Shown one piece after another: positions 628-14,878 of a stretch of 35,516 bases of DNA. The first letter of the stretch is position 1. The number at the start of each line of letters is the position of its first letter. Position numbers and translations under genes: made by a program. The DNA lies in assembly GCA_021827605.1 (NCBI GenBank), contig JAKAVF010000040.1, forward strand, positions 1 to 35,516. Direction: 5' to 3'. The notes under the pieces are model-generated. The model was not told the DNA's origin and did not search any database. It saw only the letters and a list, made by a program, of their open reading frames with translations. This DNA is from Microcaldota archaeon. Its GTDB lineage: Archaea; Micrarchaeota; Micrarchaeia; Micrarchaeales; Micrarchaeaceae.

Positions 628-660
628 CTAAAAGAGTTATGATGGTATAAACTCTTTTAG
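628..660 (+). terminator. Perfect 11-bp hairpin after the phosphotransferase
   Basis: CTAAAAGAGTT (628-638) and AACTCTTTTAG (650-660) are exact inverted repeats around an 11-nt loop, 29 nt after the stop codon at 599. There is no T-run directly after the 3' arm, so it may be a terminator, an RNA processing site or an operator. The 3' arm runs into the first 25-bp repeat at 657. Confidence 0.4.
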
Positions 661-681
661 AACTTTCATGAGAGTGTTGGT
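657..681 (+). repeat. 25-bp dispersed repeat, copy 1
   Basis: Consensus of the three copies is TTAGAATTTCCATGAAAG followed by TGTTGGT. Copy 1 has 3 differences. It contains a mini-ORF (ATG at 668) encoding MRVLVR whose TGA overlaps the ATG of the next gene as ATGA at 685-688, an arrangement typical of translational coupling. Confidence 0.6.
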
Positions 682-1963: not shown

Positions 1964-2360
1964 TTTTTCCATTAATTTAGAACATCAGCTCTTAATTGTT
2001 TAAAATTTTATTATTCCATCCAAGCGAAATAAAAATACAATCTTCAAAACCTGCTTACTCCGCAAAAATGGAAAACATGCCATTTTGGTTAACCCATCCC
2101 GATTATTGCAAAAGTAAGCCAAAAGAAAATGGATTTACTCGTGAGGCACTATTTCGGCTCAGAATTTTGGAATGGTGCATGCCGAAAATCATAAATATGA
2201 AAACGTACTTTTAAGCCAGCTAAAACACGTCTGTAACTGGTTTTCGACGGAAAAAACACGCGCTGATTTGCGTTCTGCTGCACGATGTATTTGCTCATTA
2301 GTATTTACATAGGGTCAATATGCGATGCTGCTTGACGCAAATAACGAACAAAAGCATTTC
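1964..2360. other. About 400 bp without a supported gene
   Basis: AT-rich at first, then mixed. A TTG-initiated 72-codon frame at 1996-2214 is open but has no ribosome binding site or recognisable motif. It may be a decayed gene, because its composition is protein-like after residue 18. From 2215 to 2360 nothing was recognised. Confidence 0.4.
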
Positions 2361-2385
2361 TACTAAGAGAGATTGAGAAAAACTA
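2361..2385 (-). terminator. T-rich 3' tail motif after the 237-aa gene
   Basis: On the minus strand the stop codon TAG is followed at once by TTTTTCTCAATCTCTCTTAG. The same pyrimidine-rich tail occurs after the stop codons at 3246 and 4854 and, more diverged, near 5667-5690 and 6340-6363. U-rich tracts are the known signal for archaeal RNA polymerase termination, so this is inferred to be the terminator of each unit. Confidence 0.5.
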
Positions 2386-3096
2386 GGAGCTTTCTGGTGA
2401 AGGGCGAAGCAGTAGACTCTCGTCTATGGAAAGCTCATCCCATGGAAGTTCGAATCGCCCTTTTTCCGCAGCCTGCGCAGCCTGCCTTAGTTTATCTGCA
2501 TAACGGCTGTATATCACTGCCTTTTTAGGGTCGCTATCTTCTAGACGTAAGGAAGCTACCTCATATTTTGAACTTGCCTCAAACAGATAGGTGCGCATTT
2601 TTGCAAGATGGCCATCTCTACTCTGCTTCATGGCGCTTGAAACTGTCTTGTCACTGCTTATAGCTGCAAGTGTTGTATGTGGATCAGTCACGGTTGATGC
2701 GACGAATTCCTGTTGAGCAGACCATAAGCTGCGAATTGCACCAAGTATATCTTGCCTGTCTTCGGAACAATCTACCCTCACTGTTAGAGAAATGATGTAG
2801 TACTGTGGGCGCGTAATTAGTTCTACTGAAAGCGCTTTCCCGCAACTCAGATTAAACTGTGAAGTAAGTATCCAGTAGTCAGCGCTTTTGTTAAGAAGGT
2901 CTATTGCTTCAACGGTTATTCCATATTTTGCTGCTTCTTCCGCGTCGCGGGCGTACCCTCTTGCCAGTGCTTCAGCAAGCACAGCACATGCGGACGGTGG
3001 TGCACCGCCTTTAACCAGCATCTCAAGCCTTTCCTCAAGCTTTGATAATATAGGCTTATTTGTCCTCTCTTCAGACTTCGCTGTAGTCTCAACCAT
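2383..3096 (-). CDS. Island protein 1, helical, unknown function
   Basis: The start is set at MVETTAKSEE (237 aa). A TATA box at 3127-3137 rules out the longer frame, and GTGG precedes the ATG. It is soluble and mostly helical, without Cys-metal motifs or a signal peptide. Around residues 35-80 the pattern ALARGYARDAEEAA...LLNKSADYW matches AYERGYNEPAY...LQKAAEFW in the island gene at 5700-6209. I read this as distant paralogy: a helical pair with conserved R-G-Y, L, A and W. A second half, with helices rich in Ala, Arg and Asp, has no counterpart. It lies alone behind one of the shared island promoters. Function unknown. Confidence 0.7.
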   Translation of the reverse strand: MVETTAKSEERTNKPILSKLEERLEMLVKGGAPPSACAVLAEALARGYARDAEEAAKYGITVEAIDLLNKSADYWILTSQFNLSCGKALSVELITRPQYYIISLTVRVDCSEDRQDILGAIRSLWSAQQEFVASTVTDPHTTLAAISSDKTVSSAMKQSRDGHLAKMRTYLFEASSKYEVASLRLEDSDPKKAVIYSRYADKLRQAAQAAEKGRFELPWDELSIDESLLLRPSPESS

Positions 3097-3122
3097 TTTA
3101 CCACTATGATAAATTGCGTTAT

Positions 3123-3253
3123 TTCTGATATTTAAAGACAGCAAATTCTTGCAGATTTGGCAAGAGTTCTTACGCTTTTGGACCACGCTCCCTCGATTTG
3201 CGGGAACTTATGTGATGCTCTCATGCTAGGAGAAAGTGAGAAAAACTAATAAG
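3123..3253 (-). repeat. 131-bp intergenic duplicate, copy 1
   Basis: Matches 4731-4861 with only 4 mismatches and no gap. It covers the promoter block, the intergenic stretch, the T-rich tail and the last codons (Tyr, TAG) of the preceding gene. Confidence 0.9.
3127..3180 (-). promoter_or_regulatory. Island promoter P1 (TATA plus upstream box)
   Basis: The TATA box CTTTAAATATC is at 3127-3137 and the upstream box CAAAAGCGTAAGAA at 3167-3180. The CGC core lies 46 nt from the outer TATA edge, identical in the island promoters at 4735, 6242, 6726 and 8697 and one nt longer at 5574. The predicted start of transcription is close to the ATG at 3096. Confidence 0.65.
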
Positions 3254-3601
3254 TTATATACCACATGCTCCAGTCCATGTCTTTAACTGGAAGCTGCGCC
3301 TCTTTCACAACTGACTCCTGCTTAACGCCTGCTATTTTCTGGTCAGGCTCGACACAGGTTCTATCTCCAAGTGCTTTATCTGCAACACAGTCTGCAACAC
3401 AGCTTTAGAGTGATCAGGCTTTTCTGATCTAAGCGCAACTGGCAATATGGGTGAACGTTTCAAGTATGCATCAGGCCCGGATGATCTCAGCCTGAGTAGC
3501 GCCTCTAGGCCGATTAATATCGCTTCTTGCTCACAGAACACGCCGGATTGTAGTGGGGCAATAAAATTTGTGCAGTCAAAGTTTATTGGGTCTGCAGTCA
3601 T
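3246..3601 (-). pseudogene. Island gene with a probable frameshift
   Basis: From the ATG at 3601 (MTADPINFDCTNFIAP) the frame is open for 89 codons to a TAG at 3332. A second frame, open from 3404 to 3246, reads naturally to its end (for example DQKIAGVKQESVVKEAQ, then DMDWSMWYITY). It stops at a TAG placed exactly as in the sister intergenic copy at 4854. The overlap of the two frames holds a 12-bp tandem duplication (3379-3402). Either a single-base indel broke the gene or ribosomes shift frame here. The ATG overlaps the previous stop as ATGA, so it is coupled to 3598-3912, or both are parts of one original gene of about 220 codons. Confidence 0.6.
3379..3402. repeat. 12-bp perfect tandem duplication
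   Basis: TCTGCAACACAG occurs twice head to tail (3379-3390, 3391-3402). It sits where the upstream and downstream reading frames of the broken island gene overlap, a plausible slippage site. Confidence 0.85.
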
Positions 3602-3912
3602 GTTCTGATTCCATTGGCCCCTGTAAAATAGCATGTCTGCGCATGGTTTCCCACCATATAGCTGTATAGAAACGCCAGCCCAAACCTGTATTCCTTGCCG
3701 TTCACAATGGCATCAGCAAGGTGCCGTTCGAGAGGCTTTCCATCTATGCTCACTTTCGGGTTCTTTGCAAGATCGGCCAGATATGAGAGCGGATTGCGTC
3801 CTAAACTTTCAAAGCTGTCTAAAACGTATACCTTCAACATTATCGTAGTTTTTTGCATATTAAGCGGAGCTGCAAAACGATCCACCACGAGGGGTATAGA
3901 TTTTGTCGTCAT
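3598..3912 (-). CDS. Island protein, 104 aa, unknown
   Basis: Starts MTTKSIPLVVDRFAAP, with a TATA box at 3942-3951 about 30 nt upstream. No family recognised. It contains a central charged segment (DLAKNPKVSIDGKPLERH) and a C-terminal aromatic segment (RFGLAFLYSYM). The last residues (GNHAQTCYFTGANGIRT) overlap the next frame by ATGA. They may be a frameshifted end if this and the downstream fragment were once one gene. Confidence 0.5.
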   Translation of the reverse strand: MTTKSIPLVVDRFAAPLNMQKTTIMLKVYVLDSFESLGRNPLSYLADLAKNPKVSIDGKPLERHLADAIVNGKEYRFGLAFLYSYMVGNHAQTCYFTGANGIRT

Positions 3913-3941
3913 TTAACCGCATAATGTTATGCACCATTTCA

Positions 3942-4000
3942 GATATTTAAGTCTTAGGAGACCTTACAAAATATGAGCGAAACTTTGCTATTTTGCAACC
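3942..4000 (-). promoter_or_regulatory. Island promoter P2, degenerate copy
   Basis: The minus-strand TATA box CTTAAATATC (3942-3951) is preceded by GGTTGCAAAATAGC (3987-4000), alignable with GGTTGCAAAAGCG of promoter P6 with one inserted base and nearly the same spacing. Confidence 0.45.
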
Positions 4001-4011
4001 ACTCTTTTTCT

Positions 4012-4131
4012 TCAAAAAAGATTGATGAACGAAAGCTGTATCAGGTCTCTGATTTGCTCGGTTGGCCTTAGCGCAGAGATCTCTGCCACCCTCACTCCAT
4101 TAAAAGTTGGGGCTGTGCTTGCGCTGCTCAT
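4012..4131 (-). CDS. Possible 39-aa peptide or gene remnant
   Basis: The frame MSSASTAPTFNGVRVAEISA continues to LIQLSFINLF and stop. There is no ribosome binding site, and the frame is open a further 11 codons upstream without a better start (ending ...FYYLASS). It lies between a T-rich tail motif (4172-4196) and promoter P2, exactly where a complete gene sits in the other island units, so I favour a truncated island gene over a functional peptide. Confidence 0.25.
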   Translation of the reverse strand: MSSASTAPTFNGVRVAEISALRPTEQIRDLIQLSFINLF

Positions 4132-4214
4132 GCTGGAAGCTAAGTAGTAGAAGGCATTTAGCCCTTATCAACGGCTAGGAGACGTATTGAGAAAAATAAA
4201 ATGATAAGGAAAAG

Positions 4215-4703
4215 TTATAGGGTCCTCGCGAGCCTTTCTGCTCTTATTTCTGCTATTACGTCTCCAGGCAGACGGAAGCCTGCTTCACGCCTCTTCTCTG
4301 GCGATAGGCTCCTCATGTATTCAAGCTCGTCGCTGTACTTGTTAGACACTGTGCCGACGAAATCATCGGTTAACCTAAAGGCCAATGCGCTCTTTGGGGT
4401 AATGGTAATCTGACTAAAGTCCTCACACATCTCAACACGCAATTGCCTCTGGACACGCGGTGGCAATGCTTCATACCAGTCTCTTACGTCTTCCCATGCT
4501 TCCCTAAGGTGCTCCTGCTTTACAACTGGCGACAATGAGGTGGTGCTCATGTACGCAAATGGGTTTACCCTTCTTGCAAGCGCAGTAATGGGAGATGACT
4601 CTCTCGGTGTCAAAATTGTCGATTCCCTGGAAGGAGAAAAGTCTCTCTGTGTTAAGCCCGGCGCAGGATTGGTCACTATGACTCTTGGTTGTTCGATTGA
4701 CAT
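4215..4703 (-). CDS. Island protein, 162 aa, unknown
   Basis: MSIEQPRVIV is preceded by GGTGA seven bases before the ATG, and the TATA box at 4735-4745 fits a short leader. The first 60 residues are rich in Pro, Ser, Thr and Arg and probably disordered. A folded part follows with Trp/Tyr (AWEDVRDWYEALPPRVQ), a strand-like stretch and a basic C-terminal helix (ERLARTL). No catalytic motif or membrane segment was seen. It is the only gene behind its own island promoter. Function unknown; the disordered head and acidic helix suggest a partner-binding protein, but that is conjecture. Confidence 0.65.
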   Translation of the reverse strand: MSIEQPRVIVTNPAPGLTQRDFSPSRESTILTPRESSPITALARRVNPFAYMSTTSLSPVVKQEHLREAWEDVRDWYEALPPRVQRQLRVEMCEDFSQITITPKSALAFRLTDDFVGTVSNKYSDELEYMRSLSPEKRREAGFRLPGDVIAEIRAERLARTL

Positions 4704-4730
4704 TGATTCACCTGCAAATTAATTTATTTT

Positions 4731-4861
4731 TTCTGATATTTAAAGAGAGCGAATTCTTGCAGATTTGGCAAGAGTTCTTACGCTTTTGGACCACGCTCCC
4801 TCGATTTGTGGAAACTTATGTGATGCTCTCATGCTAGGAGAAAGTGAGAAAAACTAATAAG
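4731..4861 (-). repeat. 131-bp intergenic duplicate, copy 2
   Basis: Partner of 3123-3253 (4 mismatches). The match ends inside the last codons of the transglutaminase-like gene. Confidence 0.9.
4735..4788 (-). promoter_or_regulatory. Island promoter P3
   Basis: TATA box at 4735-4745; upstream box CAAAAGCGTAAGAA at 4775-4788; core-to-TATA spacing 46 nt. Nearly identical to P1. Confidence 0.65.
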
Positions 4862-5543
4862 GTTTGGTACCCTCCGACAATGGGCACTCGCTGCTTTGAA
4901 TGTTTTGGTCTGCCATTACCACGAGCTTTGCCCTTTTTGAGCCAGGATAATATTCTAAACCTAACTTAACCCAATACGCAGTAATTTTTAGATGGCTCAA
5001 TTCAGAGATGACCATCAATGCACAATTTATATAGTGACATCCTACTGTCTCTCTTTCGCTTAACGGTTTAATATTCTCTAGGTTTTCTCTGCCATATTTG
5101 GCGTCATAGATCCCTCTCCCCGGATCAATAAAAATATAGTCGTTCCCCGTTTTGATGCGAACGCAGGCGTGGTCTGAGACCTGGCCATTAATTTTGAGTG
5201 GAAATGCTTCGCAGTACTGTGCTTCGTAGCCAAGATATCTTAAGCACGCAGTAAGGAACATGCTTAGTTCAAAACAGTGTCCGGATTTCGTACGCCATAC
5301 CTCATCAGGTAATTTGCACGCTTCGTATAGATCACGTGACTCCATACTGTAATCTATAATCTTCCCTTTTCCTCTAAACATTTCTAGTGTCTTCTCTAAA
5401 TCTTTTCCTCTAAATTCTTTATCTAAGTAGGCCTTACATTGATCGGGCAAGGACATTAACCTTTCATAATCAATCCTAGTTTCACCGAGCGCAAATGTCT
5501 CCCTAACCTGGTCGCCTATGTGCGCTACTGATACTGCAACCAT
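4854..5543 (-). CDS. Transglutaminase-like cysteine enzyme
   Basis: The start is MVAVSVAHIG (229 aa), because a TATA box at 5574-5584 overlaps the longer TTG frame and GAGAT lies 3 nt before this ATG. The triad of the transglutaminase-like fold is visible in order: Cys90 in TKSGHCFELS, His125 in VSDHACVRI and Asp140 in YIFIDPGRG. Family members are cysteine proteases, amide hydrolases or cross-linking enzymes acting on peptides. No signal peptide or membrane segment, so it is probably cytoplasmic. The helical N-terminal 85 residues resemble those of other archaeal stand-alone members. It is the clearest enzyme of the shared-promoter island. The substrate could be another island protein, which is conjecture. 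Confidence 0.75.
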   Translation of the reverse strand: MVAVSVAHIGDQVRETFALGETRIDYERLMSLPDQCKAYLDKEFRGKDLEKTLEMFRGKGKIIDYSMESRDLYEACKLPDEVWRTKSGHCFELSMFLTACLRYLGYEAQYCEAFPLKINGQVSDHACVRIKTGNDYIFIDPGRGIYDAKYGRENLENIKPLSERETVGCHYINCALMVISELSHLKITAYWVKLGLEYYPGSKRAKLVVMADQNIQSSECPLSEGTKPY

Positions 5544-5573
5544 AAAATCTCTATAAATTATCGTGTCTTCCAA

Positions 5574-5628
5574 GATACTTAAAGCTTTATTAATCTCTAT
5601 AAAATTAGCAGAAGCCTTTACGCTTTTG
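5574..5628 (-). promoter_or_regulatory. Island promoter P4
   Basis: TATA-like CTTTAAGTATC at 5574-5584; upstream box CAAAAGCGTAAAG at 5616-5628. The CGC core is 47 nt from the outer TATA edge, one more than in the sister promoters. Confidence 0.55.
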
Positions 5629-5699
5629 TGGCTCTCCCTTGAGTTGTGGGAACAGAGTGGTCCTAGCTCTAAAAGAGATTGAGAAGAAACAAGACGTTC

Positions 5700-6209
5700 T
5701 TACATGCTCATTCCCATACTCTGGCCCTGGGATTGCCTCTGCTCTTCTTCCTGCCTTAGTCTCTTCCTTGCCGCCTCTTCCCGCTCTCTTTGCTCGCCTT
5801 CGTCTGTTTTAAGCAACGCTCTAAGTCTTTCTTCTTCAGCGGGATTCCCAAAGCCTGGCTCCTGCTTCTGCTCCATCACTGGATGCCTGTGCTGTGCAGT
5901 AGGTTCAAATTTGTCCCAGTCTATTATGCGATCATCTTGCATCGCAGTAATCAGGCCGTTTAATATCCCTATCCATTCATTTCTGGAGTATTTTGCATCC
6001 GGTATCTCTATCGTTGGTTTTAACATTTCCCAAAATTCTGCCGCTTTCTGTAGCTGTGCAATCGCGACATCGTTGTAGGCAGGTTCATTGTACCCTCTTT
6101 CGTACGCTTCCTGCGCTATCGCTACTCTGAGTTCTGCACCTTTCCAGCCACCTGTTGCGTCGGCTCTCTCTACGGCACTCTCTATTGATTCCTTAAAGCC
6201 CCTCGTCAT
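5700..6209 (-). CDS. Island protein, helical paralogue, 169 aa
   Basis: The TATA box (6242-6252) lies within the longest frame, so the start is placed at MTRGFKESIESA; ATG 6227 is an alternative but close to the TATA. Residues about 5-75 form a helical region, KGAELRVAIAQEAYERG...VAIAQLQKAAEFWEML, and then IDWDKFEP. The same order (AELRLRIARSACEIG...AVAQLEEARRIL, then VDWDAYKIPP) is found in the gene at 7447-7959, and a related helix pair in 2383-3096. The C-terminal 60 residues are a highly charged Glu/Arg/Gln helix ending in Met-rich QSMGMSM. No catalytic residues are evident. A scaffold or binding protein is likely. Confidence 0.7.
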   Translation of the reverse strand: MTRGFKESIESAVERADATGGWKGAELRVAIAQEAYERGYNEPAYNDVAIAQLQKAAEFWEMLKPTIEIPDAKYSRNEWIGILNGLITAMQDDRIIDWDKFEPTAQHRHPVMEQKQEPGFGNPAEEERLRALLKTDEGEQREREEAARKRLRQEEEQRQSQGQSMGMSM

Positions 6210-6241
6210 TCCAAAACCCTTAAACATACTTTGGACTTTTT

Positions 6242-6295
6242 CATATTTAAAGGAAACTAATCCTTGCAAATTTAGGACAATTCTTTACACTTTTG
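6242..6295 (-). promoter_or_regulatory. Island promoter P5
   Basis: TATA box CTTTAAATATG at 6242-6252; upstream box CAAAAGTGTAAAGAA at 6281-6295 (one core base changed); spacing 46 nt. Confidence 0.6.
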
Positions 6296-6413
6296 AACCC
6301 AGCTCCCTCGATTTGCGGAAACAGAGTGTGTCCCTGCCTTCTAAGAGCGATTGAGAAAACTAAAAGATTTTTACTCGGGACTATCAAGTGCTCTAAACCG
6401 CTTTCGACATTTC

Positions 6414-6695
6414 TCAAGTTCTCAATGCTGATTTCGTCACTTCAATCGCTACATCATATGGGAAAATAGTCGTGTGTCCATTGACGACTAAAGGCTTGTC
6501 CTTACGCAAAATTATAATAATGCGTTCTTCTGTAGGAACCCCATTTTCTATGATTTGCTTACCTGGTGGAACTTCAAGTCTGAGTACAGTAGGAACCTGA
6601 GTTGCGTTTGGGATTTTGACTTTGATTTCTGCAGGCGCCTGAGCTGGTGGCGCACTTTCGCCTCTTGATTTCAAACTCGTTTGAGTTTCAGTCAT
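6414..6695 (-). CDS. Island protein, 93 aa, beta-rich, unknown
   Basis: MTETQTSLKS is preceded by GTGGTTGA; the TATA box is at 6726-6736. A 25-residue low-complexity head (Pro, Ala, Glu) is followed by alternating strands: IKVKIPNATQVPTVLRLEVP, then ERIIIILRKDKPLVVNG, then DVAIEVTKSALRT. This resembles a small beta-sandwich or barrel. No family recognised. Fifty-odd bases separate its stop from the T-rich tail at 6340-6363, unlike the other island genes where the tail abuts the stop, so the C-terminus may have been shortened by a frameshift. Confidence 0.6.
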   Translation of the reverse strand: MTETQTSLKSRGESAPPAQAPAEIKVKIPNATQVPTVLRLEVPPGKQIIENGVPTEERIIIILRKDKPLVVNGHTTIFPYDVAIEVTKSALRT

Positions 6696-6725
6696 TCAAC
6701 CACTAAGATAATTAACGCGCTTCCA

Positions 6726-6779
6726 AATATTTAAAGCTCTTGAATTCCTGAAAAATTAGCATTTTTCCCTACGCTTTTG
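6726..6779 (-). promoter_or_regulatory. Island promoter P6
   Basis: TATA box CTTTAAATATT at 6726-6736; box CAAAAGCGTAGGGA at 6766-6779; spacing 46 nt. Confidence 0.6.
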
Positions 6780-6865
6780 CAACCCGCTCTCTCGAATTTT
6801 AGAACGGAGACGGCGCTCCTCCTTCAGGTTGTCATGCTCCAATTCATAGACTGCGCCTCCTTCTG

Positions 6866-7444
6866 CTAGTCCGCTCTCTTCCAGACGCCCCATGCCAGTT
6901 CCTCATCATAGTTTGGCACGAGAAATTCTTGTCTGTGTTTCTGGCATATTTTTGCGGTGCCGCGCGAAAGCAATGATTCGACAAAAATGAATGTGGGAAG
7001 AGCAGAACGTGCGCGTCCTGCGGCCGGCATCTCATCAAGCGCACACAAGACACTGCTCGTCGGATTGTATCCCAGAGGCGTCAGGAGGAAACCACCCTTT
7101 GCTACAATAGAAAATATCGCAGGGATGATGTAATATGGGGGTCGTCGCGCAATCACGCAGTCTGCACTGCCGTGGCGGATAAGTTCCAGGCCGCCATCGA
7201 CAGCGATGCCGCCTCTTCCCTTCAAAAGCTCAATCGCATCGCGATCCGGATCAAGGAACATAATTTTGCTGAAAACCCTCGATGGGGTAGCGTCAGCACC
7301 GCATGCTGGGTAGATTGCACGCTCAGGGTCTCGCATTTGCACTCCGAACCTATTCTTGAACCGGCTGTAAATCTCCGTTTCGTTAACGTAAATGTATGGT
7401 TTCGCAGATGGCGTCCTCGCTGCTCCTCCTTTTGAACGGTACAT
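6866..7444 (-). CDS. SAM-methyltransferase-like protein
   Basis: Start at MYRSKGGAAR (192 aa): GAGG lies 10 nt upstream and the preceding gene ends 2 nt before, whereas a longer frame would overlap it by 52 nt. A Rossmann-like order is visible: AIYPACGADATPSR (motif I position, residues 44-56), IMFLDPDRDAIELL (acidic end of strand 2, D65), GSADCVIARRPPYY (strand 4, 92-105), then IVAKGGFLLTP (strand 5). This is the class I methyltransferase plan, but motif I lacks the usual GxGxG. It could be a diverged methyltransferase or a non-catalytic relative. Last gene of the four-gene island unit behind P7. Confidence 0.6.
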   Translation of the reverse strand: MYRSKGGAARTPSAKPYIYVNETEIYSRFKNRFGVQMRDPERAIYPACGADATPSRVFSKIMFLDPDRDAIELLKGRGGIAVDGGLELIRHGSADCVIARRPPYYIIPAIFSIVAKGGFLLTPLGYNPTSSVLCALDEMPAAGRARSALPTFIFVESLLSRGTAKICQKHRQEFLVPNYDEELAWGVWKRAD

Positions 7445-7446
7445 TT

Positions 7447-7959
7447 TTAACAATCCTCGCTTCTGCGCCTGTGGAACATCCCAATTCCGCTCACCCATAC
7501 GCCATCAAGCGTCGGATGCGGCACTGCAATCCTGACATCATCTTCCTGAAGCGGCGGAATCTTGTATGCATCCCAATCGACGTCCCTGCCTTCTCTTATA
7601 AAAATGATTATCTCATCTATGTTTCCAATCCTCACTGTTGCTCTCATCTCCTGGAGCAGTACTGCAAACGATGCAGGATACGGCGCGTCCATCTCCGGCG
7701 CCTTTGGATGCTCATATTTCTCTTTTTCCCTATCGTGATGATCCTCCAGAATCCTCCTGGCTTCCTCAAGCTGCGCCACTGCTGTTGCTTTCATTTCCGC
7801 GGTTCCGATCTCGCAGGCAGACCTTGCTATCCGGAGCCTGAGCTCGGCACTCGCATACTGCTCGTCCGTCCCGCTCTCGAACACAGCAGCTTTTGCCTTT
7901 GCAATCGCTACCGCAACATTCACCCTTGTAGGGCTTTCAACTGTTCTTTCATCTCCCAT
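7447..7959 (-). CDS. Island protein, helical paralogue, 170 aa
   Basis: MGDERTVESP is preceded by GGTAAT. Residues 15-72 form Ala-rich helices (VAVAIAKAKAAVFESG, AELRLRIARSACEIG, AVAQLEEARRILEDHH). A charged linker and LLQEMRATVRIGNIDEIIIF then lead into REGRDVDWDAYKIPPL. The helix-plus-DWD arrangement repeats that of 5700-6209, which I read as paralogy. It differs in the tail: the other protein ends in a charged helix, this one in a compact HPTLDGVWVSGIGMF segment. No catalytic motif. The methyltransferase-like gene follows after 2 nt, so the two are probably translated together. Confidence 0.7.
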   Translation of the reverse strand: MGDERTVESPTRVNVAVAIAKAKAAVFESGTDEQYASAELRLRIARSACEIGTAEMKATAVAQLEEARRILEDHHDREKEKYEHPKAPEMDAPYPASFAVLLQEMRATVRIGNIDEIIIFIREGRDVDWDAYKIPPLQEDDVRIAVPHPTLDGVWVSGIGMFHRRRSEDC

Positions 7960-8043
7960 TCATATTACCTAATTAAATCCATCAGCAATCACGAGTAAAG
8001 CTCCTGGTTGGAAGGGCTCGCCCTAAGCATCGAATGCATGCTG

Positions 8044-8250
8044 TCAAGTAGCTGCGCCTCGAAATAGTCTGCTCCCGCTCTGCGAATATTCCATCCTGGC
8101 TGCAAGCCCGAGAGTGGCTGAGCCGTCCACCATCCTCGGCATGTCCATTATCAGGCCATTGACCATGGAGTCCTTCCCCTCTATCGTAGCTGCGGCGAAG
8201 GTGGAAAGCCTGCTCGTCAGCTCCTGCGCATTTTTTGAAAAATCCGGCAT
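8044..8250 (-). CDS. Island protein, 68 aa, unknown
   Basis: MPDFSKNAQE has an ideal ribosome binding site (GTGAT, 3 nt, ATG). It is a helical small protein with Met-rich segments (MVNGLIMDMPRMVDG). No family recognised. It lies 32 nt after its upstream neighbour in the P7 unit. The small size and strong start signal argue for a real partner protein of the unit rather than a chance frame. Confidence 0.55.
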   Translation of the reverse strand: MPDFSKNAQELTSRLSTFAAATIEGKDSMVNGLIMDMPRMVDGSATLGLAARMEYSQSGSRLFRGAAT

Positions 8251-8282
8251 AAAATCACATCTGTGTGCACTAGTCCATATAT

Positions 8283-8660
8283 TCAGCCGTACCCCTGAAT
8301 ATCCTGCCTGCTGTAAGTCTCCGGGTCTACCTTGTACTGCTGTGCCTCGTTGGGCACGGTTTCTGTTGCGGGCGCCTCTTTCTTCGGTTTTGGCGAGCTT
8401 CTCCTGAGTTTCGCCGCCCTCACTATCTTCTCTAGCCTTTCCCCTTCCAGTCTCAGAATTTCATTCGCTCTCTGCAGCCCGCTATCTGTGGATCCCCTGC
8501 AAAGTGCCCTGATCACTCTTGTCAATGGAGCGTCGGCGCCCTTTGCGATAAGAAGGCTTGCGCCCGCCACTATGCCGAGCTCAAGCCCCGCCCTATCAAC
8601 ACCAGTCTCGTTCCCTTCTGTGGTTGATTTTGCCCCATGCTTTCCTCTTGTTTCAGCCAT
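8283..8660 (-). CDS. Island protein, 125 aa, unknown
   Basis: Start at MAETRGKHGA, preceded by GGTGTG; a GTG two codons upstream is less likely. The first 25 residues are polar. A helical core follows (AGLELGIVAGASLLIAKG, VIRALCRGSTDSGLQRANEI), then a basic Lys/Arg/Pro stretch (RRSSPKPKKE) and a Gln/Tyr-rich tail. The hydrophobic part of the core is too polar for a sure membrane helix. First gene behind promoter P7, followed by 8044-8250, 7447-7959 and 6866-7444 in the same direction. Function unknown; the basic stretch could bind nucleic acid. Confidence 0.6.
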   Translation of the reverse strand: MAETRGKHGAKSTTEGNETGVDRAGLELGIVAGASLLIAKGADAPLTRVIRALCRGSTDSGLQRANEILRLEGERLEKIVRAAKLRRSSPKPKKEAPATETVPNEAQQYKVDPETYSRQDIQGYG

Positions 8661-8696
8661 AAACACACCTTTAGCAAATAGGGTAGCGCGTTCCCA

Positions 8697-8750
8697 GATA
8701 TTTAAAGAGCTTGGATTCCTGCAAAATGTGAGCGCGTTCTTACGCTTTTG
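8697..8750 (-). promoter_or_regulatory. Island promoter P7
   Basis: TATA box CTTTAAATATC at 8697-8707; box CAAAAGCGTAAGAA at 8737-8750, identical to P1 and P3; spacing 46 nt. It drives the only multi-gene unit of the island. Confidence 0.65.
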
Positions 8751-8805
8751 GACGCTGCTCCCACCTGCCTTTTTCTGATTTTCAGGATAAGCTCATGTCC
8801 CGGCT

Positions 8806-9243
8806 TCAGCGGAGCTCCTTTGCTATCTCGCCTGCAGCAGCCTTTAGCTCATCCGGAGTGTAATGCTTTGGCCTCTCCTTCGGATTGCTGTGGAAGTCTG
8901 CGCTTCCAGGTATTATGTGGTAGTGGAAATGCGGGATGACAGAGCCTGCTCCCGCGCCACCTAGGACTATCAGCTTGTGGCTCCCGTCAAGGCCTTTTGA
9001 TTTGTAGTATTCGATTATCTTCTCTATGGCTGTTTGCATAGTCCTTGTTTCGTCCGGGGAAAGCTCGTGGATGTATTCCCTGTGCTGCTTCGGCATTATC
9101 AGGAAGTGCAGGCCAGCGGAATCCGAATCCATGCAGAGCGCGACCCTTACGTTCCCGACCGTGAATATCGTCGATCCGCCTATTATCTTCTCGTTGCAGA
9201 ATATGTCCTTCGGAGCGTCAGCCGTTTTCTCTGCCATGGCCAT
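8806..9243 (-). CDS. HIT-family nucleotide hydrolase/transferase
   Basis: 145 aa with the histidine triad HFHYHIIP (H105, H107, H109) near the C-terminus and the family's helix-strand segment LHFLIMPKQHREYIHEL. HIT proteins (Hint/Fhit/GalT-like) cleave or transfer nucleoside monophosphates through a His-AMP intermediate. The single short domain is closest to Hint-type hydrolases of AMP-lysine or dinucleoside polyphosphates. The start ATG has GTGAT 3 nt upstream; a second ATG two codons later is possible. TATA box at 9273-9283. It does not carry the island box, so it lies outside that regulon. Confidence 0.88.
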   Translation of the reverse strand: MAMAEKTADAPKDIFCNEKIIGGSTIFTVGNVRVALCMDSDSAGLHFLIMPKQHREYIHELSPDETRTMQTAIEKIIEYYKSKGLDGSHKLIVLGGAGAGSVIPHFHYHIIPGSADFHSNPKERPKHYTPDELKAAAGEIAKELR

Positions 9244-9272
9244 AAAATCACTATGCAGTAATGGCGCTTCCA

Positions 9273-9326
9273 GATATTTATAGATTTGTCGGATAAAATC
9301 CGGTCTTGACGAGAAAGTATAAAAGC
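9273..9326. promoter_or_regulatory. Divergent TATA boxes, HIT gene and membrane gene
   Basis: A minus-strand box CTATAAATATC at 9273-9283 serves the HIT gene. A plus-strand box AAGTATAAAAGC at 9315-9326 points to a leaderless start at 9347. Confidence 0.5.
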
Positions 9327-9346
9327 TTCATTTGAGAAGCCTGCTC

Positions 9347-9832
9347 ATGAAGGCGCAGGCATTTCCAGGATTCGTCAGGATAGGCTGGCCGATCATACTG
9401 GCTGCGATAATAGTCCTCGTGCTGTTCATTGTGCTTGTACCTTTCATACTGGTAGCCGCGTTCAACACCATCTTCGGGCTGTCCATACAATTCAGCTTCC
9501 TGACCTGGCTCGCTGCACTGCTGCTCATAATAACAATAGGATCCCATGGCGGGGCAGCGCACAGCTTCAGGGCGGGGATAAGCGGCAGGCTGCTTGGCTT
9601 TGTCGCGGCCTTCGTGCTTATCAGCATAATCGTCTTCCCGCTCATGCTGCTGTGGTCCCTCAACACGCTCTTCCCGGTAAGCATACACTACACCTTCTTC
9701 ACGTGGCTCGCAGCACTCGCCATAGAGCTCATATTAGGGTCGTTCAGCTGGGGCAGCGCAGTGCGCGTGCGCTATATGCCTGGACCGCCGGCTGCCGTCG
9801 GAAACCAGAAGCACAGAACATTCAAGACCTGA
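9347..9832 (+). CDS. Four-helix membrane protein with internal duplication
   Basis: Start at MKAQAFPGFV (161 aa), placed by the TATA box about 27 nt upstream; a TTG 15 nt earlier would precede the transcript start. Four membrane segments are visible. Segments 1-2 and 3-4 are two copies of one unit: FNTIFGLSIQFSFLTWLAAL and LNTLFPVSIHYTFFTWLAAL align without gaps, each after a Val/Leu-rich helix. A basic loop (HSFRAGISGR) separates the halves. The C-terminal tail (RVRYMPGPPAAVGNQKHR) is polar and basic. Function unknown; duplicated two-helix units suggest a small transporter, channel or membrane organiser, but nothing points to a substrate. Confidence 0.75.
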   Translation: MKAQAFPGFVRIGWPIILAAIIVLVLFIVLVPFILVAAFNTIFGLSIQFSFLTWLAALLLIITIGSHGGAAHSFRAGISGRLLGFVAAFVLISIIVFPLMLLWSLNTLFPVSIHYTFFTWLAALAIELILGSFSWGSAVRVRYMPGPPAAVGNQKHRTFKT

Positions 9833-9843
9833 GGCTCATAGGC

Positions 9844-10329
9844 TCAGGCGATCGCTACTTCTGGAAGAGCTATCCTCCTGAGAGTGTCAGAAGGTGACTC
9901 GACTATCGTCGCATCCCTCATGTTCTGCCTCAGTATGCTCAAGGTAGTGAGCAGCTGCTCCGAATCGAGCTCCGGCATCTCTCCACCTATCACCTGACGC
10001 TCTATGCTGAAGGACATCGAGTCCAGAAGGAACACATATGCATCGGCAAAGTCGCCGTTCTCGACAAGCTCGAGGAACTCACGGGCGTCGCTGCTGGCCA
10101 GCTCGAAGCTGCCGGCTTCCTTCCCGGACTGCCTGCACTCTATGTGCTTATCTCTGACTACTATGCTGCTGAACTGGCCGAATACGTCCTCCACATACCC
10201 ATCGCAGAGAGCCCTGTATTCAACGCTGTTCCTCCTCACCGTCGCCTCCACAGATACCCCGACACCCTCTATCCTGGCCCTGCTGATTGGCCTGGCTATC
10301 GCCTCTAATACACCCACTTTCTCACCCAA
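9844..10329 (-). CDS. Unknown soluble protein, about 160 aa
   Basis: The longest frame starts at TTG 10329 (MGEKVGVLEA). A GTG at 10317 with GGTGA just upstream is an equally good start, given a TATA box at 10347-10357. The N-terminal half is strand-rich (RARIEGVGVSVEATVRRN); the C-terminal half is helical with acidic patches. In style (small, acidic, stand-alone, single promoter) it resembles the island proteins, but the upstream island box is missing, since that DNA is the coding end of the next gene. No family recognised. Confidence 0.55.
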   Translation of the reverse strand: MGEKVGVLEAIARPISRARIEGVGVSVEATVRRNSVEYRALCDGYVEDVFGQFSSIVVRDKHIECRQSGKEAGSFELASSDAREFLELVENGDFADAYVFLLDSMSFSIERQVIGGEMPELDSEQLLTTLSILRQNMRDATIVESPSDTLRRIALPEVAIA

Positions 10330-10353
10330 TATATATTTTCTCTTCGGAAATAT

Positions 10354-11349
10354 TTAAAGGTTGTGAATTGCTTTTTCTATTGCTGCTGATTTCTCCCTGA
10401 GGTCTGCGCTCCTGCTGTTGCTGCGGATGAAGACAGAGTCAAACCACTTCGCACTTGTGCTGGCGCTCCCCGCATCTACGGTGAGCATGGAGAACGCCCG
10501 CACGCCGCGCCTCCTCAGCTCGAGCTGGTCCCTCTTCAGATACGCTGTTATGTAGGAATAGTATTTTCTGTTTGCGTCGAAGGCATCGATACCGGATCTC
10601 TCCATGGCCTGCGCAGCCCGCGCGCTCTCGCTGTTGTAGAGGAAAACGAAGAACAGCGACCTCCTGTTCTTCCCTATCGTTGAAAGCGCCTCCCCATTCA
10701 GCTGCCAGTCTATGAGGTGCTTCAGCTTTCCCGTGCTGATTATCTTTGCTGCTCCGCCACGCGAGAAGCTTGGGCGCGCCCTGTGCGATGAGAGGGTCCT
10801 TAGGACGAAGCTGTCGAGGAGAGCGAAATCTCCGCCTGCAGAAAGGTGCAGAAGCTTCTCAAGCACATATATGTTCTGGACGAAATAGTAGAGGAACGCA
10901 ACGTTCGGGTTCCTGCTATAATCAACTATCGCAGCCTTGTATTCCTTCGGCAGCCCGAATATGCCATGGAACAGGAAGCCGGACTGGTTGACTATGTATG
11001 CGCTGTCCATGTCTTTCCCAAGATGCCTCGTTAAGGACGTCTTTCCAGTTGCGTCGCCCCCCTCGACGACCACCAGAGTCGTGCCCCTCTTCCCAAACTT
11101 ATGAAGATAGCTGCCCATAGCCTCGAAGAGGCGGTGCCTCTTTATGAAGGATGCGATGTCGCTGGCGGTGGGGGCTGCGCTCCAATTCAATGAGCTGCGG
11201 TACTTCTTCAGGAAGAGGAAAAGCTCGCGCCGCATCTTGGTAGATGGCAGATGCGCTGCTTTTGGGAGAGAGCTCCGGCTTAGCAGCATTTCCTTCAGCT
11301 CGGAGAAAACCGAGCTGTCAATGCGGCCTGCGCTCTGCTGTCTCATCAT
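10354..11349 (-). CDS. Thymidylate kinase-like P-loop protein
   Basis: 331 aa. A helical N-terminal extension of about 90 residues, unusual for the family, precedes the P-loop TLVVVEGGDATGKTS (GGDATGKT 97-104), which closely resembles the thymidylate kinase motif 'EGxDGxGKST'. Downstream are an FLYYFVQN segment, FALLDSFVLRT (the DR-like motif position), a segment rich in Arg and Ser that could be the lid, and LFFVFLYN (strand before the base-binding part). Family members phosphorylate dTMP or related nucleotides, but the long extension and tail suggest another substrate or a polyphosphate-kinase-like role. The first ATG overlaps the previous stop (ATGA), coupling it to the surface protein gene. 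Confidence 0.65.
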   Translation of the reverse strand: MMRQQSAGRIDSSVFSELKEMLLSRSSLPKAAHLPSTKMRRELFLFLKKYRSSLNWSAAPTASDIASFIKRHRLFEAMGSYLHKFGKRGTTLVVVEGGDATGKTSLTRHLGKDMDSAYIVNQSGFLFHGIFGLPKEYKAAIVDYSRNPNVAFLYYFVQNIYVLEKLLHLSAGGDFALLDSFVLRTLSSHRARPSFSRGGAAKIISTGKLKHLIDWQLNGEALSTIGKNRRSLFFVFLYNSESARAAQAMERSGIDAFDANRKYYSYITAYLKRDQLELRRRGVRAFSMLTVDAGSASTSAKWFDSVFIRSNSRSADLREKSAAIEKAIHNL

Positions 11350-12281
11350 CCAGGGTTGAATATCGGTCCCGGCAACGTTGCCACCGCAGCCTGGCTGGCG
11401 GGCGCGCCAATAGAAACCTCGTAGAAGCTAACAGCATAGTGCGAAGATGAAGTCGCGTTCACTCCTGAGGTGCCAACGAATGTGAAGTTGAGGGGCACCG
11501 AATAGCTTCCGGAAAGGCACATGCTAAGCGTGTAGGATGTGTTGAGAGTCTTGCTGCCGACGGTCTTTGACACAGAGCTGCCCGACCCTTCCACGAACAG
11601 GCACGGTTGCGTGTTGAAATAGCGCGTGCCGTAGCTCTTCATGGAAACATTGAAAGCTGTGCTGAAGCCGTTGCCGCCGGACAGCGAACCGCTGGATGAG
11701 CTGCTGTTCTGCGTTTCCAAAGCCTGCACTAGGCTCGACACTCCCTGCAGCTGCATGCACTGGTAAGTGCGGGCTGATTGCGATGACGAGTTAGAGAGGT
11801 TGCTAAGGCTGCTGAACTTTGCGCATGTATAGGTGCTGGTGTTGTTCACCCTTACGTAGACTTCGCTCATGTTCCCGACGAGCGGGACCTTGGTGATGTT
11901 CACGGTGAGGCGCGAGCTGGAGTTGTCGTGCTCGTACGTCAGGTTGAGCGGCACGGTGTAGCTGAACAGGGACACACCGATCTGCGCAGACCCTTTGTAG
12001 TCTATCGAGAATGGCTGTGCACCCGCTATGTTGTGCCCTACTCCTGAAAGCACTCCTGTGAAGCTGCTTGTCTGATTTGGAGGCAGTATGGCTAGCACTT
12101 CCGGGGATACGTTGCCGGTTCCATGGAGCCCGCTGCTCGAGCTGGGCGCCATAACAAATATAAACAGAGCGACTACGACCACTATCACAAGGATTATTAT
12201 CCCAAGGATCATGAATATGTTAATTCCGCCACCAGCGCCGGCTGGGGCTGCGGTTCCAGCTACTACACCAGGATTAGCCAT
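11346..12281 (-). CDS. Membrane-anchored surface protein, Ser/Asn-rich
   Basis: 311 aa. A short Gly/Ala head is followed by one hydrophobic segment (INIFMILGIIILVIVVVVAL, about 20-45) and a 265-residue outer domain. That domain is rich in Ser, Asn, Thr and Val with more than ten N-x-S/T sites (for example NQTS, NLTY, NNTS, NVSM, NFTF), as in glycosylated archaeal surface proteins. Four Cys (YTCAKF, YQCMQL, QPCLFV, SMCLSG) could pair. The beta-rich, low-charge composition suggests a sandwich fold. GGTG precedes the ATG; the TATA box is near 12316-12327. No known domain recognised; an attachment or cell-wall role is inferred. Confidence 0.7.
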   Translation of the reverse strand: MANPGVVAGTAAPAGAGGGINIFMILGIIILVIVVVVALFIFVMAPSSSSGLHGTGNVSPEVLAILPPNQTSSFTGVLSGVGHNIAGAQPFSIDYKGSAQIGVSLFSYTVPLNLTYEHDNSSSRLTVNITKVPLVGNMSEVYVRVNNTSTYTCAKFSSLSNLSNSSSQSARTYQCMQLQGVSSLVQALETQNSSSSSGSLSGGNGFSTAFNVSMKSYGTRYFNTQPCLFVEGSGSSVSKTVGSKTLNTSYTLSMCLSGSYSVPLNFTFVGTSGVNATSSSHYAVSFYEVSIGAPASQAAVATLPGPIFNPG

Positions 12282-12331
12282 TTTGACACCAAGTTTACTG
12301 AAGTATAACGGCGTTAAGCTTTTTAAACCCG

Positions 12332-14878
12332 CTAGTCCCTGTTCGCCTCAACGAACTGAACGTTCGCGTCTATCTTCTCGAGCACCTGCTCCAGCTCCCT
12401 CTTTATGTCGTCGCGCATGTTTTCCTTCTTCCTGAAGAACGTATCTATCTCCTTCCTTGACTGCCTGTCCGCGTACACCTCTAGGTCGTCGAGCGCATAG
12501 ACGAGCATGCGACCAGCAGACTCGTATGTCGACATCAGCCTCTTCCAGTTCTTCTTCATCCACTGGAGGAGTATTGCGCGGGCCTTGATGTTTGACCCGA
12601 CCGAGTTGATTAGTATTATCGAATCCTGGAGGCGGACCTTGTCTTGCATCAGGCTGGTCTCCAGGGCGCGTACCATCAGCTCTGGATTCGTCATGAGCCC
12701 AATTGACTGCAGCGCCTTTATCTTTTCCTCAGGAAGCGGCTGCTCCTTGTACATCTTGAGGAACCGGTCGAAGAGCTCGTTCGAGCCACTTGACCGCGCA
12801 ACTATCCCATAGATGGCGGCCTTTAGGTTTGTGTCGATTTCTCCCTTGCCTGCGACGAATGCGTTGAACATTGCGTTGGCCTTCTCGACTGTCTCGCGAT
12901 CGTCCGCGAAGCCGAGGGACGATATGGCCATCGCGCGCGTCCTTATGTCGAGCATGCTCTCGTTCTCCTTCTTTTCCCATCCGAGCTTGGAGAGGATGCC
13001 TTTGTTGAACTCTATGCAAGCGAGGCGCGCGGATTCATGGTATGGAAGGCCTTCCGTCATCATGTAGATGAAGGAGAGATGCCCTGAAACTGAAACGTTC
13101 GCGGGATATGCGCAATCCATCATGTAGCTCTTCACGAAGTCTACGTACCGCTTTGCCGGAATCCTTCCGCTGCGGGCGAGTGCGAAGAGGTCGTTGTCCA
13201 CGCCCCATGCGTCTATGTCCCCAAGCCTCTTCTCCATTATCAGCCGCCCTATCCTGTCCAGCATCTCCTGCTCATACCTGACCCTGTACAGCCCACATTG
13301 CCCGTAGTTGAGCTTAATCCACTGGCTCCCGTCCTTTATCGTGAACCTCTTGTCGTCGAGGAGAATCCTCTTCTCGTTCATCTCGCTCTTGTAGTGAACG
13401 GGTATCCTCCATTCCTCCGGCGTGTCAAAGTCGAGAAGCGTGAACCTCTTCTGCTCTACGAGATATCCTCCCTCTTCCTTGTTCTCGGAGAGGCTGATAA
13501 TCGGGTAGCCAGGCTGGTCTACCCAGTCGCTCATCACCTCGCTGACAGGAAGGTCAAGGCCCTGTTCCTTGGCAGCGTCCTGGATTGAATTCCAGAGGTC
13601 GAACTTTGTTGCATTGTTGTACGCGTTTTTCTTGAGGTATTTCTGCAGGCCTTTCCTAAATATCTCGCGGCCGACGTAATCCTCAAGCATGAACAGCACG
13701 CTCCCTCCCTTGTCGTAGCTGACGTGGTCGAACGCGCTGCTTATCTCGCCTGGCGTATTGACGACCAAATTGATTGGATGGGTGGACTTTAGCGCATCGT
13801 CGGAGAGTGCTGTGGCGACTGTGTCGCGATAGTAGTTGACCATCATCTTGTACTCTGGGAACACCTCGTCTGAAATCCGCGATGCCATGAATGTAGCGAA
13901 GCTCTCGTTGAGCCATATGTCGTCCCACCACTTCATGGTGACAAGATCGCCGAACCACTGGTGGACCATCTCATGCGCAATCACCTCGATTATGTGCATC
14001 TTGACGACGACTGCGGTGAGCTTCTCGTCGCCGAGAAGGTAGGTCTCCCTGAATGTGATTGCCCCCCAGTTCTCCATCGCGCCTGCGGAGAAGTCTGGTA
14101 TTGCGATAAGGTCGAGCTTTGGAAGCGGGAACTTTATGCCGAAGTACTGCTCTTCTGCATCGAGGATCTTCCTTGCGAACTGCAGAGCCATCTGCGCGTA
14201 CTTCTTCTTGCCCGGAGTGGTAACGACGCGCAGCTTCACGCGGCCGTTGTTGTCTTCGAGATAGTCGTACTTTCCGACACCCAGATAGAGGAGGTAGCTT
14301 GACATAAGGGGTGTTTTCTGGAATGTAACCTGCTTCCTCTTCGCATCGAACTTCTTTTCGCTCTTTACAGGCATGTTCGATATGGCGTCGAGGCCTTTGT
14401 CTATTACTAAGGTGAGATCATAGGTCGCCTTGAACTCCGGCTCATCGAAGCACGGGAAGGCGGCTCTTGCGCTCGGCGCCTCAAACTGTGAGGTTAGTAT
14501 GTAATGGTCCTTGCCGTTGGCGGTGTACTTGCTCCTGTAGAACCCCTCGAGCTTGTCGCCGCATGTACCAGAGAACTCGATGACTACCTCGGCATCGCCC
14601 ATAACAGCCTCCTTGACCCTGATTGTCAGCTCCTCGTTCTTTTCGTCGAGGGAAAAGTCGCCTTGCTGCTCCATCTTGCCCTTCTTGACAACTACGCTCT
14701 TGATGGCGAGGCCCTTCGAGTTCAGCTTTATTATCTTCGTCCTCTTCCTTGCCTTGACCGAGATCCGCTCATGGGCGACATAGGTAAAGTTGTCCATGTC
14801 CGGCTCGATAACCAGGTTGTAGTTGGAAGGCCTTACAATGTCGCCTAGGGTTTGATGCTTTACCGCTTTTACCGCCAT
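12332..14878 (-). CDS. M1 aminopeptidase, tricorn-interacting-factor type
   Basis: 848 aa, full length for the gluzincin M1 family. Exopeptidase motif GAMEN at 266-270; zinc site HEMVH (H302, E303, H306) with E325 in NESFA; the transition-state Tyr is Y388 in VSYDKGG. An N-terminal beta saddle (1-200), a thermolysin-like domain (200-450) and a helical ERAP-type C-terminal domain follow in the usual order. Archaeal relatives (tricorn factors F2/F3) trim peptides released by the proteasome or tricorn to free amino acids in the cytoplasm. GTGAT lies 3 nt before the ATG. An inverted repeat lies between TATA box and start. Confidence 0.95.
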   Translation of the reverse strand: MAVKAVKHQTLGDIVRPSNYNLVIEPDMDNFTYVAHERISVKARKRTKIIKLNSKGLAIKSVVVKKGKMEQQGDFSLDEKNEELTIRVKEAVMGDAEVVIEFSGTCGDKLEGFYRSKYTANGKDHYILTSQFEAPSARAAFPCFDEPEFKATYDLTLVIDKGLDAISNMPVKSEKKFDAKRKQVTFQKTPLMSSYLLYLGVGKYDYLEDNNGRVKLRVVTTPGKKKYAQMALQFARKILDAEEQYFGIKFPLPKLDLIAIPDFSAGAMENWGAITFRETYLLGDEKLTAVVVKMHIIEVIAHEMVHQWFGDLVTMKWWDDIWLNESFATFMASRISDEVFPEYKMMVNYYRDTVATALSDDALKSTHPINLVVNTPGEISSAFDHVSYDKGGSVLFMLEDYVGREIFRKGLQKYLKKNAYNNATKFDLWNSIQDAAKEQGLDLPVSEVMSDWVDQPGYPIISLSENKEEGGYLVEQKRFTLLDFDTPEEWRIPVHYKSEMNEKRILLDDKRFTIKDGSQWIKLNYGQCGLYRVRYEQEMLDRIGRLIMEKRLGDIDAWGVDNDLFALARSGRIPAKRYVDFVKSYMMDCAYPANVSVSGHLSFIYMMTEGLPYHESARLACIEFNKGILSKLGWEKKENESMLDIRTRAMAISSLGFADDRETVEKANAMFNAFVAGKGEIDTNLKAAIYGIVARSSGSNELFDRFLKMYKEQPLPEEKIKALQSIGLMTNPELMVRALETSLMQDKVRLQDSIILINSVGSNIKARAILLQWMKKNWKRLMSTYESAGRMLVYALDDLEVYADRQSRKEIDTFFRKKENMRDDIKRELEQVLEKIDANVQFVEANRD

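Follow-up and report, generated by a model that had tools for sequence, protein, structure and literature searches.

Known archaeal activators touch TBP and TFB from upstream of the TFB-recognition element (BRE; PMC5512572, PMC4158304). The ultraviolet (UV)-inducible promoters of Sulfolobus acidocaldarius carry a short non-palindromic element, A(N)TTTC, at a fixed place upstream of BRE and TATA box, -39 to -44 from the transcription start, in front of many dispersed genes that include the general factor gene tfb3, the factor not being known in that paper (PMC5817253). In the Methanococcales, EarA and Ptr2 use several protein sites just upstream of BRE and help to recruit TBP or TFB, EarA through four 6-bp sites at one operon and Ptr2 at a few genes (PMC5512572). 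In the Thermococcales, a single element, the TrmBL1/Tgr glycolytic motif (TGM; an inverted repeat, TATCAC-N5-GTGATA), defines a genome-wide regulon of metabolic genes and activates when it lies upstream of BRE/TATA (PMC4158304). Finally, the Sulfolobus ARA box, as summarized in PMC5817253 and PMC5512572, is an activating element immediately upstream of BRE/TATA whose binding factor is given there as unidentified. Here we describe promoters in a 35,516-nt stretch of DNA (the window), contig C6 of a 52-contig Micrarchaeota archaeon genome of 971 kb, in which an initial annotation had proposed that seven minus-strand units between positions 2383 and 8750 (the island) form a local regulon under one factor. 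We think it likely, from sequence comparison, that the seven units belong to a genome-wide promoter class, probably one regulon run by one sequence-specific regulator.

A box at a fixed distance from TATA

All seven units (starting at 3096, 3912, 4703, 5543, 6209, 6695 and 8660) begin with ATG where the initial annotation had placed their starts, and the look-alike promoters that it described have a CAAAA-type box at a near-constant distance from the TATA box in every case. Counted from where CAAAA starts to where TTTAAATAT or its variant starts, this offset is 44 nt, with exact CAAAA...TTTAAATAT, in units 3096, 4703, 6209, 6695 and 8660 (minus strand, 5' to 3'). Unit 3912, previously set aside as a degenerate exception, has variant letters (CAAAATAGCAAAG...CTTAAATAT) yet also keeps the offset of 44, and unit 5543 has an offset of 45 and the TATA variant TTTAAGTAT; the constancy claimed for most units stands, with the split now six units at 44 and one at 45.

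Genome-wide counts and matrices cover 877 of the 971 kb (GC content about 50%), with gene calls made mechanically and the reversed genome sequence serving as the main control for matrix scans. A sequence-only model of the block (R1) matched the seven promoters and then about 15 further genome sites, chiefly through the box-to-TATA half. Because model-based picking could select what was sought, we also performed a plain count, in which CAAAA lies exactly 44 nt upstream in 17 of the 67 TTTAAATAT sites, against about 0.3 per other offset. A matrix seeded on these 17 sites returned 39 sites of at least 20 bits (31 in the first round, before refitting), and none in the reversed genome either time. 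Searching the genome, as the initial annotation had advised, recovers the island promoters and adds about 30 dispersed sites as class members, the island being the densest cluster of the class.

The island promoters were also found from outside. A model made from 23 sites outside the island (R2) recovers all seven, with E-values, rough for R1 and R2 alike, of 3e-9 to 5e-4, and a matrix from 33 outside sites only gives six of them 39.2-50.3 bits and the promoter with the 45-nt offset 18.0 bits, the reversed-genome maximum being 18.9 bits. On the minus strand, these promoters span 3128-3180 (unit 3096; box CAAAAGCGTAAGAA to TTTAAATAT; 50.3 bits), 3943-3995 (unit 3912; CAAAATAGCAAAG to CTTAAATAT; 45.4 bits), 4736-4788 (unit 4703; 49.9 bits), 5575-5628 (unit 5543; CAAAAGCGTAAAG to TTTAAGTAT; 18.0 bits ungapped, R2 E-value 4.9e-4), 6243-6295 (unit 6209; 45.8 bits), 6727-6779 (unit 6695; 47.2 bits) and 8698-8750 (unit 8660; 39.2 bits). 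Since the outside-only matrix and R2 find them to be ordinary class members, the putative regulon is not local: a common regulator at constant helical phase, as proposed earlier, is still the best reading, and a local-only regulon is rejected on the R1 matches elsewhere, the offset-44 count and the outside-only matrix.

Most outside sites score 20-51 bits when left out of the matrix in turn (leave-one-out); the three weakest (13.7-17.7 bits) are doubtful, and we therefore put the class at about 35-40 promoters. A TATA box is recognisable in front of 97 genes; CAAAA lies at 41-47 nt in 16 of these, against 0-3 in other 7-nt bins, and the class is therefore a subclass and not the general promoter of this organism. 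Its sites are dispersed over many transcription units and lie directly upstream of genes, with a TATA-to-ATG distance mostly of 38-42 nt, which is consistent with short leaders. The box does not occur at random positions unrelated to TATA boxes, as it keeps a single offset across genome and genus.

Conservation in relatives and helical phasing

Among the other 13 genus members, 43 of the 102 CAAAA-TTTAAATAT pairs are spaced at 44 nt, the next offset having 7, and 10 of the 13 genomes contribute. R2 sites number 11-21 in eight genus members and 2-7 in five, reach 14 in genus g3 and 13 in genus g40, and are mostly 0-2 elsewhere in the order; outside g1, g3 and g40, the weak R1 or R2 matches of AT-rich or distant genomes, mostly 0-2 in each genome, are taken as background. 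Where a class gene of a sister species has a homologue here, that homologue is mostly a class gene too. Orthologues keeping the promoter include TFE (in two sister species), the orphan families L098, L089 and L101, as well as L127 and the island genes u1 and u2, with a 45-nt pair in the AT-rich G004 and weak paralogues of one gene as exceptions. Promoter identity exceeds that of the flanks at L089 (82% vs 26%) and at C8/G008-C37 (88% vs 30%). Many other sister class genes are without a homologue among the called genes, and gene content thus turns over under a constant promoter. In one pair (L078 5106 and L169 1441), the promoters are 88% identical, the flanks 30%, and the genes behind them have no similarity, which suggests either that a gene was replaced behind a kept promoter or that the promoter moved.

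The box consensus is CAAAAnnGnAA, 44 nt upstream of TTTAAATAT. In the outside sites, C at -44 is present in 84% and G at -37 in 69%; AAAA at -43 to -40, AA at -35/-34 and TTT at -30 to -28 are conserved as well, followed nearer the TATA box by A at -21, TT at -17/-16, TTT near -9 and then TTTAAATATCA. As far as the TATA box, A/T trimers recur with a period of 10.5 bp (power 4.7 vs 0.5 in 81 other TATA promoters), as measured on sites partly chosen by a matrix that includes those positions; part of the phasing may follow from this selection, though nothing beyond CAAAA and TATA was fixed in the seeds. The pattern is more sharply defined in genus g40 (TTTACAAAAnnnCAAAnTTCC...CAAAnTG...AAAA...TATAAATATCT).

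From these observations we infer a single regulator, activation and co-expression. One sequence-specific DNA-binding protein, probably an oligomer, would lie along one face of the helix over about four turns, contact TBP/TFB at a fixed helical phase, and activate (less likely repress) the about 35-40 promoters. The stretch between box and TATA is a ladder of A/T tracts, its 10.5-bp repeat in register with the TATA box, and most of the promoters drive soluble proteins without known domains. In the island, the element GTTTCCRCAAATCGAGGGAG and a putative common transcript end come on top of this. Several points weigh against such a regulator, among them the choice of sites on which the phasing was measured. 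The letters of the box also change from species to species (G006 has CAAAATTAC), and DNA shape may therefore contribute to specificity no less than sequence does; nor do the class proteins have an obvious function in common.

The same 10.5-bp register with TATA, and the persistence of A tracts while box letters vary between species, would also be expected if the phased tracts were intrinsically curved DNA or the site of an abundant chromatin protein, which would make a promoter stronger with no specific regulon or signal behind it. We consider this unlikely, as the conservation of C-44 and G-37 concerns positions other than A/T, the box occurs in so few of the recognisable TATA promoters, and the class gene set is strongly biased. 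This bias is plain in the comparison with Pfam, where a hit was obtained for 5 of 36 class proteins vs 15 of a sample of 20 random genes (Fisher P 8e-6), and in hydrophobic segments, present in 2 of 36 class proteins vs 219 of 779 (P 0.002). The class proteins are thus mostly soluble and without known domains. Those with a family include TFE, an SPFH/band-7 protein, an S-adenosylmethionine (SAM) methyltransferase, and aldose-epimerase-like and transglutaminase-like proteins.

The gene for TFE, a general transcription factor, has a class promoter in three species (L121 18719-19441; L180; L182), suggesting that a core transcription factor may be under class control. Separately, in G013 (L133, near 9118), an extended-type class promoter precedes the gene for a protein of 168 aa that has a TFB-like zinc ribbon motif and, by eye, apparently lacks the cyclin repeats.

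The island and its genes

The rest of the block is partly kept between units, as the initial annotation had stated, and the similarity takes in the greater part of the intergenic region. Over 135 nt, unit end included, units 3096 and 4703 agree at 96%, and three further units show 65-77% similarity over 78 nt. The sequence GAGGGAGCG proved to be part of the longer element GTTTCCRCAAATCGAGGGAG, of which four units have a clear copy and 6695 a partial one, whereas it is absent upstream of units 3912 and 8660. The four clear copies, on the minus strand, are TTCCCGCAAATCGAGGGA, of the local type (3189-3206), TTTCCACAAATCGAGGGA (4797-4814), TTCCCACAACTCAAGGGA (5635-5652) and TTTCCGCAAATCGAGGGA (6304-6321). 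The initial annotation saw no copy of the block elsewhere in the window; genome-wide, this holds for the upstream element, whose four matches in its own genome are all in the island, and fails for box plus TATA, with its about 30 more sites. Among 58 relatives, GTTTCCRCAAATCGAGGGAG has two matches in G006, at the syntenic place, and none in any other place, and control matches were zero. Looser versions stand ahead of class promoters in clusters of G011, G013 and G072; the genes behind them are mostly unrelated, with one homologous gene carrying the element in both G006 and G072. Across species, the upstream element is better kept than the box letters CAAAAGCG.

A T-rich, terminator-like unit end, TTTTTCTCAATCTCTCTTAG (minus strand; repeat family D4), occurs at five places, 2363-2385, 3226-3248, 4834-4856, 5669-5691 and 6341-6363, where it may act as a terminator. 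No more than three features set the island apart: the second upstream element, the recurrent unit end and the tandem order of the units. The first two look like a duplicated promoter-terminator spacer, and the second element may bring further regulatory input. No structured RNA was matched in Rfam for the window and two sister loci.

It could be asked whether the likeness of the island promoters is mainly ancestry, that is, a tandem-duplicated spacer of this kind, whose copies gene conversion or a recent duplication has kept similar, no special regulator being involved. The near-identity of units 3096 and 4703 up to and including the unit end fits this, as does the tandem order of the island genes on one strand: the same-strand clustering of class sites in the genome stems from the island, clustering outside it not being significant (2 same-strand pairs vs 1.0 expected). 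As an account of the promoters, it is nevertheless improbable, and for the box-TATA part it is refuted, by the recurrence of the spacing at about 30 dispersed genes whose sequence is otherwise different and in other species. The island genes were also considered as paralogues, which we rejected, their sole similarity being a weak match between u5 and u7.

The genes behind the island promoters, all on the minus strand, are mostly of no known family, and an NCBIfam search of the island proteins gave nothing above cut-off. The gene u1 (2383-3096) encodes a 237-aa protein of no known family, predicted to be all-helical, whose orthologue in G006 has the same promoter; an AlphaFold2 model from two sequences is mostly helical, with a mean predicted local distance difference test (pLDDT) of 75, and has no PDB match at E <= 0.001. 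The unit u2 (3332-3912) consists of two frames that overlap and, taken together, match a single 185-aa gene in G009 (L185, from about 1275), suggesting that it is frameshifted here or that the assembly is in error. No known family was assigned to u3 (4215-4703, 162 aa), u5 (5700-6209, 169 aa) or u6 (6414-6695, 93 aa), and u4 (4854-5543, 229 aa) has a transglutaminase-like core (PF01841, E 4.4e-6 to 5e-6). Finally, u8 (8283-8660) is followed by genes at 7447-7959 and 6866-7498, both of which lack a class promoter and, judging from spacing, probably form an operon with it (6866-8660).

We also considered the island as a mobile element or a viral or plasmid cassette array, with the block as a recombination or packaging sequence. 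Most of the island has a GC content of 43-45% (window 2001-7000) vs 51-57% in the next 6 kb (8001-14000). This lower value, the orphan genes and the variation of cluster content between species are in keeping with such an origin, which we regard as very improbable: each block, with its TATA box, stands immediately ahead of a start codon, and class sites are dispersed and include that of the core transcription factor TFE in three species. A phage or defence island was rejected, a PHROG family match being found for 1 of 36 class proteins and the PADLOC model matches being three and weak.

Three further observations concern the DNA next to the island. A 24-25-bp repeat, TTAGAATTTCYATGAAAGTGTTRG, lies just upstream of small genes (window 657-681, 1206-1230 and 1441-1465) and within the 877 kb is restricted to this locus; further copies are found at L013 11360 and 11661 and at L014 11903, and one copy recurs unchanged in G015, of a different genus. 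Beside u1, about 350 bp with no obvious gene (window 1995-2345; L013 9880-10229) are about 79% identical to G006, with long invariant runs; Rfam gave no match, and the stretch may be an RNA not yet described or a gene in decay. A short frame at 1271-1424, also present at the syntenic place in G006, resembles, by eye, the start of a nucleoside/cytidine deaminase.

Comparison with described systems

The promoter class gives a set of about 35-40 genes that is defined by sequence and open to prediction in uncultured relatives, and it links many orphan genes, so far unexplained, with a single likely control input. The box CAAAAnnGnAA at 44 nt from TATA, together with the 10.5-bp phasing, is a concrete handle for finding the regulator, and co-culture transcriptomes could be used to test whether class genes are linked with host contact, stress or growth phase. 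More speculatively, and with low confidence, the class might mark a set of soluble, domainless proteins that turn over fast and are switched together in an archaeon that is probably ectosymbiotic, for example a host-contact programme, with lineage-specific genes recruited to a constant promoter; if so, promoter sequence alone could list candidate symbiosis genes in uncultured Micrarchaeota.

A search of the open-licence literature, which was not exhaustive, found no promoter-element regulon in Micrarchaeota or other DPANN archaea. Among the described systems, the UV promoters of S. acidocaldarius (PMC5817253) resemble the class in their short, fixed, non-palindromic element, in their many dispersed genes, and in having a general factor gene among the targets, TFE here. 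The UV motif is placed relative to the transcription start, whereas the outer box here lies 44 nt from TATA; the conserved region here extends over about four helical turns, the two systems differ in sequence, lineage and gene content, and the class box is not the A(N)TTTC hexanucleotide. Like the sites of EarA and Ptr2 (PMC5512572), the class would offer several protein contacts just upstream of BRE, here as a phased array at about 35-40 promoters. With TGM (PMC4158304) it shares the principle of one element defining a genome-wide archaeal regulon, but the class box has no clear inverted repeat, TATCAC-N5-GTGATA is absent from the class consensus, and the class genes are mostly orphans. The ARA box, as far as PMC5817253 and PMC5512572 describe it, differs in sequence, is semi-palindromic, serves arabinose genes and adjoins BRE. 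In common with archaeal upstream-element regulons, the class described here has a fixed distance to TATA, dispersal directly upstream of genes and retention at orthologues.

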